DNA of 64,000 nt from Candidatus Gastranaerophilales bacterium (lineage in GTDB: Bacteria; Cyanobacteriota; Vampirovibrionia; Gastranaerophilales; Gastranaerophilaceae), in the NCBI GenBank assembly GCA_944325735.1, contig CALVBI010000002.1, forward strand, positions 310,001 through 374,000, in the 5' to 3' direction. Position numbers and translations under genes: made by a program. Below the pieces are notes generated by a model. It was not told the DNA's origin and made no database searches. It saw only the letters and a list, made by a program, of their open reading frames with translations. Shown here piece after piece: positions 20,355 through 22,497 of this stretch (its first letter is position 1; each line of letters opens with the position of its first letter).

Positions 20355-20417
20355 AATATTAGCAAAAATGATTATTCAGGTATTTTTTTAATAATGAAAC
20401 AAAAAAGGAGTCTCAAA

Positions 20418-20924
20418 ATGCAAGTTAACAGTATAGGTAGTTCAAATTATTCAAATACTTTCACAGGTGGTATAAATTCAACTTTGTATAAAAAAATTGT
20501 ACCTGATAATAGTTTTCCTACAGATGTGTTTAAAAAAGTTGATGATGTATGTAGAACTAATAAAAGTCCGTTTGTCCTTTCTGATGCAATATATAATGCA
20601 AAAGAAAAGGCTGCTGAATTCATTTTAACAGCTGTGGATACTGTTAAATTTATTCCTGGTCTTGATAATGTAAAACCTAAAATTGTGAAATCTTCTGGAA
20701 ATAACCTTGCAGAAGCCTTTAAAAATATAGATTTAAAGGATTTACAAAAAGCGAATGAAGAATTAGCTGTTGATTATTCAAAAGCGTATAAAGAAACAGA
20801 AGGATTAAGAAAAGAAATTTTTGAAAAAAGAAAAGCTGTAGTAGAAAAATTAAATGACAAATTTAATAATGCAGATGGCTTTTGGAATAATTTTTATAGA
20901 AATCTTGAGGATCAAAAAAAATAG
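20418..20924 (+). CDS. hypothetical protein with N-terminal FTGG motif
   Basis: This protein of 168 residues is not a family I recognise. The N-terminus MQVNSIGSSNYSNTFTGG shows the short leader motif discussed in the findings (Phe15-Thr-Gly17). The rest is hydrophilic and helical with a Lys/Glu-rich C-terminal half (about 110-150) that may form a coiled coil. No signal peptide or membrane segment is seen, and it has no histidine. The start at 20418 follows an AAAAAAGGAG ribosome-binding site, whereas the upstream in-frame ATG at 20394 lacks one. Confidence 0.7.
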   Translation: MQVNSIGSSNYSNTFTGGINSTLYKKIVPDNSFPTDVFKKVDDVCRTNKSPFVLSDAIYNAKEKAAEFILTAVDTVKFIPGLDNVKPKIVKSSGNNLAEAFKNIDLKDLQKANEELAVDYSKAYKETEGLRKEIFEKRKAVVEKLNDKFNNADGFWNNFYRNLEDQKK

Positions 20925-20926
20925 TC

Positions 20927-20955
20927 TTGTAAATTTTTATTGTTTAAGTTAGTAT
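20927..20955 (+). promoter_or_regulatory. promoter of the His-codon leader
   Basis: TTGTAA (20927-20932) and TAGTAT (20950-20955) are separated by 17 bp. The predicted start near 20962 lies just before the AAAGGA ribosome-binding site of the leader peptide. Confidence 0.65.
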
Positions 20956-20975
20956 GTTTGACGTAAAGGAAATTT

Positions 20976-21041
20976 ATGAAACAATTTAATTCTTTAAAAT
21001 TACATCATATTCATCATCATAGCGACCTTGGAAGGCTATGA
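20976..21041 (+). CDS. histidine-rich leader peptide
   Basis: This is a 21-codon reading frame with ribosome-binding site AAAGGA five bases before its ATG. It contains His-His-Ile-His-His-His (codons at 21003-21020), then SDLGRL and a TGA stop. Five of six consecutive codons are CAT, as in the leader peptides that sense charged tRNA-His in enteric his operons. The stop falls inside the 3' arm of the first hairpin of the attenuator, as in classical systems. Function is inferred from structure. Confidence 0.75.
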   Translation: MKQFNSLKLHHIHHHSDLGRL

Positions 21042-21105
21042 ATTGATGATTTGCGCTTTTTAAAGAATAAAATAAAATTCAATTCTAAAAAATAGTCTTT
21101 CAAGG
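21011..21105 (+). promoter_or_regulatory. pause hairpin and antiterminator of a putative histidine attenuator
   Basis: Three alternative pairings are visible. The pause hairpin (1:2) pairs TCATCA (21011-21016) with TGATGA (21044-21049) and CATAG (21018-21022) with CTATG (21036-21040). The antiterminator (2:3) pairs CCTTGGAAG (21026-21034) with CTTTCAAGG (21097-21105), nine pairs with one G-U. The terminator (3:4) uses the same strand 3 with the segment at 21122-21132. Ribosome stalling at the His codons would leave strand 2 free to block the terminator. Confidence 0.72.
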
Positions 21106-21140
21106 AACCCCGATTAAAGCGTTTGGAAGATTATTTTTTT
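21094..21140 (+). terminator. attenuator terminator
   Basis: AGTCTTTCAAG (21094-21104) pairs with TTTGGAAGATT (21122-21132), 11 pairs including three G-U, with a 17-nt loop. It is followed by TTATTTTTTT. The stem is only moderately stable, which fits a conditional terminator. It lies 45 bases before the next start codon. Confidence 0.68.
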
Positions 21141-21184
21141 GAGCTAGTTGCTCATTTTGTAAAAGAATTGGAGATTTAAAGAAT

Positions 21185-22459
21185 ATGACTATATCAAATA
21201 TAATTTCAGCTATAGGTAATAATAGCAGTGTATACCCCTTAATTGTTCGTGATTGTGGAATAGAAGTCCCAACTAAAATTGCTCTTACTTATAATCAAAA
21301 TAAAAAAGAGTCAAAAGGAATTGCTTATCTTGCTGCAAGAGAGCGTTTCCTTGATGAATACGCTACATCTGCAGTGTGGCTAGGCGGTATTCCTTTTGTT
21401 GGTTGGATTGCTAATAAGTATATAAAGGCTAGAGGATTAAATCCTGATGTAAATTTAAAATTGTTTAAAGAAGAACAAGGTATTCAGGGTATTGATTATA
21501 ATATCAAAAAGTTTAAAGACTTAGCGCCAGATGCTGTAAAAGATTTGGTAAAAGCAAAAGAAAATAAAAAATTGTTCGAAAAACTTTTAGCTGGTAAATT
21601 TATTGCTTCTACGACTATTCCTATTTTGTTTATGGGATTTATTTTACCTAAATTGATATTTGCATCATCTGCAAAGAAAATTAAAAATTTAAGAGAAAAA
21701 GAAGCTCAAAAAATAAAAAATAATGGACAAGTTAGTTTTTTACAAAAAGACAGATTTTATAAATCAAAAGATGTTAATTTTACAGGAAGTTGGATAACTA
21801 AAGCTGCGAATTTTTCAGCGCAAGATAAAATGGCTGTAACAGATGGTGGCTATGCTGTTGGAAGGGTTGCAACTGCAAGAAATAAAAATGAACGTTATGA
21901 TTTGTCTTTTAAAATGGCTGGTATGATGTTTTTAAATTTTGTTGCTCCAAAGTGGATTGAAAAAGGATTAAATAAAATTACTGGAATTTCTTTGGATCCT
22001 GTTATGTTAGCAGATAAAGATTTTATGACACAAATTAAGGAAGGGAAAATTCAATTACCAAAATCGGATTCCGCAAAAGATTTATTAGATTTTGTTGATA
22101 ATGTTCAAAATAAAGATACTTATTTCATAAAGTACGCTAAAAAATTCGAAAAAATAAAAATGCTTGAAAATGGAATTAGAGATCCAAGAGAATATGTAGA
22201 TTTGAAAAAATTAGGGAATTTTAGGAATGATATAGAATTATTCTCTCAAAAACTGTTAAAATCAGAAAATGTTGATTCATATATAAAGAAAGCTAAGTTT
22301 GCAAAATCTGCGAATATTTTGACAAATGTCGCATTGAGTAGTTTTTTATTGGCATATGTTTTACCAAAAGCTCAATTTGCGTTTAGAAAACTTGTAACAG
22401 GTTCTGATTTGGAACCGGGGCTTGCTCCTGCTGAAAAAATTGTAGATAAAAAGGCATAA
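21185..22459 (+). CDS. hypothetical membrane-associated protein without histidine
   Basis: I do not recognise this 424-residue protein. Hydrophobic segments occur near 60-80 (SAVWLGGIPFVGWIANKY), 140-160 (TTIPILFMGFILPKLIF), 245-260 and 380-400 (NVALSSFLLAYVLPKA). A VNFTGSW segment near residue 200 resembles the N-terminal FxG motif of other proteins here, so the upstream part could be an added domain. I find no histidine in the whole sequence. It lies directly downstream of the His-codon attenuator and is followed by a strong terminator, so it is the only gene that device can control. Confidence 0.72.
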   Translation: MTISNIISAIGNNSSVYPLIVRDCGIEVPTKIALTYNQNKKESKGIAYLAARERFLDEYATSAVWLGGIPFVGWIANKYIKARGLNPDVNLKLFKEEQGIQGIDYNIKKFKDLAPDAVKDLVKAKENKKLFEKLLAGKFIASTTIPILFMGFILPKLIFASSAKKIKNLREKEAQKIKNNGQVSFLQKDRFYKSKDVNFTGSWITKAANFSAQDKMAVTDGGYAVGRVATARNKNERYDLSFKMAGMMFLNFVAPKWIEKGLNKITGISLDPVMLADKDFMTQIKEGKIQLPKSDSAKDLLDFVDNVQNKDTYFIKYAKKFEKIKMLENGIRDPREYVDLKKLGNFRNDIELFSQKLLKSENVDSYIKKAKFAKSANILTNVALSSFLLAYVLPKAQFAFRKLVTGSDLEPGLAPAEKIVDKKA

Positions 22460-22497
22460 AAAAATACCTCCTTATTTGAGGAGGTATTTTTTTATTT
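22460..22497. terminator. bidirectional terminator
   Basis: AAATACCTCCT (22462-22472) and AGGAGGTATTT (22479-22489) form an 11-bp perfect stem with an A run before it and a T run after it. It serves the convergent genes on both sides. Confidence 0.85.

Follow-up and report, generated by a model that had tools for sequence, protein, structure and literature searches.

Why would a bacterium place what looks like a histidine attenuator in front of a single gene of unknown function? This question is raised by a locus at positions 20927-22459 of the window, by which we mean the whole 64,000-nucleotide stretch of Candidatus Gastranaerophilales DNA that was analysed, taken from a 1.94-Mb, 99.9% complete genome. 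An initial annotation, made from the sequence alone, had interpreted this locus as a complete histidine-codon attenuator preceding a protein without any histidine. The best explanation overall, which we consider very probable, is indeed a ribosome-mediated histidine attenuator that controls a histidine-free protein in bacteria devoid of histidine biosynthesis.

Organization of the locus

The locus lies on the forward strand and successively comprises a promoter, a 21-codon open reading frame (ORF), three overlapping RNA pairings, a T7 run, a Shine-Dalgarno sequence, a 424-codon gene and a terminator. The promoter that had been proposed can be read directly as a sigma-70-like sequence at 20927-20955 (TTGTAA at 20927-20932, a 17-nt spacer and TAGTAT at 20950-20955), and a matching arrangement (TTG-16/18 nt-TA...T with at least 8/12 matches, upstream of the leader) was found in 49/62 orthologous leaders. 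It was not listed by a general promoter scan because that scan requires 9/12 matches. Downstream of a Shine-Dalgarno sequence (AAAGGAA, about 20965-20971), the leader ORF (20976-21041) starts with an ATG at 20976 and stops with a TGA at 21039-21041; it encodes the peptide MKQFNSLKLHHIHHHSDLGRL and displays, exactly as described earlier, five CAT codons within six consecutive codons (21003-21020). Only one gene follows (21185-22459), encoding a 424-residue protein, and it ends at the expected terminator, a near-palindromic AT-rich hairpin at 22460-22495 that was also listed on the minus strand.

In several orthologous leaders (L048, L050, L154, L156 and similar ones), the leader ATG is located only 6-10 nt past the -10 box. 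Since a Shine-Dalgarno-like site for the leader peptide was also detected in only 43/62 leaders, the peptide may be translated from a leaderless transcript in some orthologues.

Conservation of the leader peptide

We collected 48 orthologous loci from a contig collection (45-85% identity) and further loci from whole genomes. A His-rich leader peptide was present 130-250 nt upstream of the gene in every orthologous locus examined (about 70), with HHIHHH as the pattern of the window and HHHNHHHCH, HCVHLH or HLHH among those of distant orthologues. When upstream mini-ORFs were scored for at least three His within seven codons, 70/70 targets were positive, compared to 2/193 control genes taken from the same loci, while a stricter rule of at least four His retained 64 targets and no control gene. 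The His cluster upstream of this gene is thus not a chance occurrence, and the loss of the His run from homologous loci, which the initial annotation had named as a possible refutation, was not seen. When genomes were searched with a covariance model of the leader, each gave a single strong match, which was located at this gene in all cases, with all other matches being only weak (E 0.01-0.04). The putative attenuator is conserved across many Gastranaerophilales genera; translation of the leader is inferred from the conservation of its ORF.

Codon choice in the leaders is strongly skewed: their His codons (70 loci) are 307 CAT to 15 CAC, compared to 184:65 in the genes of the window. This preference could reflect either a slower decoding of CAT or the pairing of these codons with an ATGATG strand.

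Alternative RNA pairings

The RNA from 20960 to 21145 folds at -42.3 kcal/mol (z = -4.25, 0/200 shuffles), and all three pairings that had been suggested could be recognized in it. In the 1:2 pause hairpin (21012-21048), the His codons themselves constitute strand 1, with 21012-21016 predicted to pair with 21044-21048 and 21018-21023 with 21035-21040 (88.8% of cells paired in 35 aligned leaders). Region 2 (21026-21046, 96% of cells paired) is the 5' strand of an antiterminator that turned out to be longer than the 21026-21034/21097-21105 pairing of the initial annotation, as it includes a helix of 14 bp (21026-21039 with 21092-21105) and an extension of 7 bp (21040-21046 with 21079-21085). Region 3 (21079-21105) can serve either as the 3' strand of this antiterminator or as the 5' strand of a 3:4 terminator hairpin (21087-21140), in which 21087-21104 pairs with 21122-21139 and which ends with the predicted T run (T7 at 21134-21140).

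Covariation analyses of the 35 aligned leaders, a check that had been recommended earlier, supported both of the competing helices. The main helix of the antiterminator was paired in 98.4% of cells, with 8/14 pairs showing compensatory changes on both sides; these values were reached by 0/500 shuffles and the signal was abolished when the partner was shifted by 1-3 columns. The 3:4 helix was paired in 88.8% of cells, with compensatory changes at 11/15 pairs. Region 3 is therefore complementary to two different partners in a conserved manner, as is characteristic of attenuators, and the criterion of mutually exclusive 2:3 and 3:4 helices can be considered as met at the level of predicted structures. 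Without any alignment, the 2:3 pairing still outcompeted 200 dinucleotide shuffles (rank 10 or better) in 60/62 leaders, with a median of -26.4 kcal/mol. The 1:2 hairpin, which displays little covariation, and the nearly invariant Shine-Dalgarno helix described below rest on conservation rather than on covariation. A pseudoknot between a GCGC segment located after the leader and the terminator loop was also considered (84% of lettered cells paired) and then rejected, as it showed many gaps and no covariation above shuffles.

We then modelled co-transcriptional folding using transcripts ending before region 4, with a ribosome placed on the His codons or on the stop codon of the leader. Region 3 was held by upstream RNA with a median probability of 0.91 when the ribosome was on the first or middle His codon, of 0.54 on the last His codon and of only 0.09 on the stop codon, and this difference between stalled and stop positions in the capture of region 3 by region 2 was found in 60/62 leaders. 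The criterion that ribosome position selects the RNA structure is thus met by computation only, in a test that is partly geometric, since a ribosome that has arrived at the stop codon occupies region 2; the overlap between region 2 and the end of the leader is nevertheless a conserved placement in itself. Most relatives are predicted to favour the antiterminator in the absence of translation, so that the 1:2 hairpin is no general brake.

Termination and Shine-Dalgarno sequestration

One element of the locus had been missed previously. The Shine-Dalgarno region of the gene (GAATTGGAG, 21165-21173) includes a GAATTG (21165-21170) that can pair with CAATTC at 21080-21085, abutting and overlapping the GGAG at 21170-21173. 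This helix was paired in 97.6% of cells in the 35 leaders and is nearly invariant; an alternative partner for the CAATTC is a GAATTGA located directly after the leader stop. The U-tract following the 3:4 hairpin was found in 41/62 leaders, including that of the window. The other 21/62 lack it but retain a pairing at the Shine-Dalgarno sequence or next to it, through a direct CTCCTT:AAGGAG pairing in the case of L074-L078. About a third of the leaders thus appear to sequester the Shine-Dalgarno sequence instead of terminating transcription, and much of the leader family looks as if it were under translational rather than terminator control. The window locus carries both devices, its U7 terminator and its Shine-Dalgarno helix being separated by about 25 nt. 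At equilibrium, no clear difference in Shine-Dalgarno accessibility was found between the stalled and the read-through states, the site being about equally closed in both; the switch must therefore be kinetic.

A histidine-free membrane protein

The first reading could not place the 424-residue protein, and neither could we: its family had no Pfam, NCBIfam or PDB sequence match, and a fold search against PDB and viral models gave no match at E <= 0.001 (VIA Z at most 6.0), which does not prove that the fold is new. Weak matches to PEX18/21, TraB and similar families were discarded, as they did not reach the cut-off and differed from one member to another. AlphaFold2 predicts an all-helical structure (mean pLDDT 79.7, pTM 0.72). 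The N- and C-terminal halves of the protein are similar to one another (hhalign probability 90, E 1.7e-6). Each half has a single strongly hydrophobic helix, and the protein has only two strongly hydrophobic segments, one spanning about 130-165 and the other about 372-400. Among the residues that never vary are D23, W65, F199, D220, R227 and D271. These predictions describe what appears to be a new, internally duplicated membrane protein family. A participation in histidine or peptide uptake or scavenging remains a guess, with no functional data.

A short F-x-G motif (NFTG, NTFTGG, VKFTG) is found repeatedly in proteins of the window that are not related to one another, either close to the N-terminus or within linkers (8/47 ORFs, compared to 2.7 in shuffles; for example 20418-20924). 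The 424-residue protein also has one at residues 197-201 (21773-21787), where the invariant F199 lies in a disordered linker.

As reported earlier, the protein encoded by the window contains no histidine. The initial annotation had graded this absence as weak evidence, a judgement that we reverse. Among 59 orthologues sharing less than 95% identity, only 6 His were found in 24,780 residues, while 357 would be expected at the 1.44% of the window; in a set of 17 orthologues with less than 65% mutual identity, there were 4 His in 7,184 residues (65-103 expected). In contrast, 17 homologues or paralogues with a different leader contain 0.91% His. The depletion is specific, because the remaining composition is similar, and it holds in orthologues down to about 45% identity. 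The upstream neighbour (20394-20924), which also lacks His, was considered as a possible part of the system and set aside: its best-aligned orthologues include some that contain His (for example that of L039), placing it outside the system.

Paralogues of the 424-residue protein carry a second conserved leader peptide, such as MEKFIRRNSIIKANTPIVKLMNLIWGL, ending with NLxWGL-stop 25-50 nt before the gene. One of them, L002, belongs to the source genome itself (C2, minus strand, upstream of 293992-295245), and others are L032, L082-L088, L090, L092-L098 and L214. At the DNA level, this pattern was found in 41/58 genomes, with roughly one occurrence in each and mostly at the paralogue gene. It is possibly an arrest peptide, for which the sensed signal is not known; RNAalifold detected no shared RNA structure in these leaders. 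Since other members of the family have this leader, sensing by leader peptides may govern the membrane family as a whole. Weakly related proteins of about 530 residues (L003, L099-L101) form a third group, in which no leader peptide could be recognized.

Distribution of the gene and of histidine biosynthesis

Gut Melainabacteria were previously described as lacking histidine production (PMC3787301). Neither hisD nor hisG was found in the source genome or in any of the other members of its genus that were searched, and the two had identical distributions in 58 genomes. In the order as a whole (383 genomes), 217 genomes carried the gene and 109 carried hisD; these figures include 6 genomes with the two together, while 63 lacked both (Fisher P 6e-41, without correction for phylogeny). 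The two alternate even within three genera: g30 includes 11 genomes with the gene only, 3 with both and 7 with hisD only, compared to 12, 1 and 12 in g34 and 6, 0 and 26 in g37. Transfer or contamination may account for two of these six genomes with both genes, bringing true co-occurrence to four to six genomes: in G329, hisD is on a contig with an argG seen in no other g34 genome, and in G174, the hisD score is unlike the rest. The hisD of these two genomes, which carry loci L141 and L140, respectively, differs from that of the other genomes in the order. A true argG (E below 1e-45) was missing from g30, from g37 and, except for G329, from g34; in these mixed genera argG thus shows no parallel variation, and the gene tracks the biosynthesis of histidine, not that of arginine. 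The gene thus seems to replace histidine biosynthesis rather than to accompany it: where a his operon would be expected, these histidine auxotrophs appear to have an attenuator that precedes an unknown protein without histidine.

Discussion

Leader-peptide attenuators with His codons are known in the Bacillus cereus group, in Eubacteriales and in Erysipelotrichales (PMC9413887). Like these Firmicutes leaders and HisL of the enterobacterial his operon, the window element combines a short leader peptide bearing a His-codon run with a pause hairpin, an antiterminator and a terminator in the same order; unlike them, it targets a single gene of unknown function rather than known histidine biosynthesis or transport genes, and it occurs in genomes without his genes. 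It meets the criteria of a short translated leader with a codon run for a single amino acid and of an intrinsic terminator with a U-tract. As for a target among histidine biosynthesis, transport or hisS genes, the downstream gene falls in no Pfam or NCBIfam family and hisD and hisG are absent from the genome, while a transport role is not excluded. The mechanism is his-leader-like, yet no Rfam covariance model, his leader and T-box included, matched anywhere in the window at gathering score, and the gene it would control lies outside the known his genes. A variant of leader-peptide attenuators that sequesters the ribosome-binding site was also described (PMC9413887), with comparative work in Actinobacteria (PMC1262725). 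The criterion of Shine-Dalgarno pairing is met here as well, the closed form covering the Shine-Dalgarno sequence of the regulated gene in both cases, but the Gastranaerophilales element has members with a terminator, with sequestration or with both. In the literature searched, we found no mention of leader peptides together with Gastranaerophilales.

We propose that, when charged histidyl-tRNA is plentiful, the ribosome would reach the leader stop and cover region 2, so that region 3 would pair with region 4 and transcription would end at the T7 run; in many relatives, the 3:4 hairpin together with the CAATTC:GAATTG helix may also bury the Shine-Dalgarno sequence of the gene. When histidyl-tRNA is short, the ribosome would wait on the CAT codons, region 2 would capture region 3 and the 424-residue protein would be made, its purge of histidine presumably allowing its synthesis to finish during histidine starvation. 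While computation demonstrates the leader, the exclusive covarying pairings, the His purge and the loss of his genes, a response to charged tRNA-His is inferred, in the absence of transcript, term-seq or histidine-response data. All the refutation tests that could be computed were favourable to the proposed attenuator, with the His run kept and the exclusive helices covarying.

Other readings of the same data must be weighed. The alternative structure might act on translation only, by hiding the Shine-Dalgarno sequence, with the U-tract of the window being incidental: the almost invariably paired helix beside GGAG, the leaders devoid of a U-tract and the direct pairing in L074-L078 all speak for this possibility, which we nevertheless regard as unlikely given that most leaders, including that of the window, keep a U-tract after the 3:4 hairpin and that a gap separates the terminator from the Shine-Dalgarno helix at the window locus. 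We give very little credit to the idea that the leader answers slow translation in general, as under stress or antibiotics, with His codons being merely convenient slow codons. The excess of CAT over that in window genes does suggest that slow decoding may matter, but this bias has another possible reason in the ATGATG pairing, histidine is specifically excluded from the product and the presence of the gene tracks the loss of his genes, not that of argG. It is also hard to believe that a His-rich nascent peptide stalls the ribosome by sensing a metal ion rather than through codons sensing charged tRNA-His. Clusters of His, sometimes with Cys, as in MFTPSVKRHHHNHHHCH of L065-L069 or in the HHHNHHHCH of some relatives, would fit such a sensor; however, the number of His (3-7), their spacing and their flanks vary (HCVHLH, HLHH), as suits codon counting, and neither the His purge nor the loss of his genes would be explained.

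As to its role, we suppose that the 424-residue protein most likely helps an auxotroph to obtain histidine or peptides, or to survive without them, because these bacteria lost histidine biosynthesis; this is a guess. That it has no part in acquisition and acts instead in envelope stress, dormancy or host contact, histidine shortage being only a cue, is a serious possibility, if one that we hold slightly below even. Its fold matches no transporter, strongly hydrophobic segments are scarce and paralogues under another leader are present in genomes with hisD; on the other hand, the gene and hisD alternate inside genera, which points to a role connected with histidine.

Biosynthetic enzymes are known to display a low cognate amino-acid bias (PMC4209129). 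The 424-residue family similarly holds little of the residue whose starvation would make it needed, but it does not belong to the known biosynthetic enzymes and is nearly devoid of this residue, so that the His purge extends this bias to a protein of unknown function. It provides a clear case in which a protein predicted to be induced by starvation nearly eliminates the amino acid that is lacking, and close paralogues serve as the control. In a protein family without known relatives and in bacteria whose biosynthetic pathway is gone, the attenuator gives a testable handle on an unknown gene, since it predicts when and why the protein is made. Tentatively, with about as much doubt as confidence or a little more, we suggest that one paralogue acquired a His-codon attenuator and lost its histidine residues in these auxotrophs, and that a histidine-starvation system for acquisition or survival thereby replaced the lost his operon, within a family that may as a whole be controlled by the sensing activity of leader peptides.
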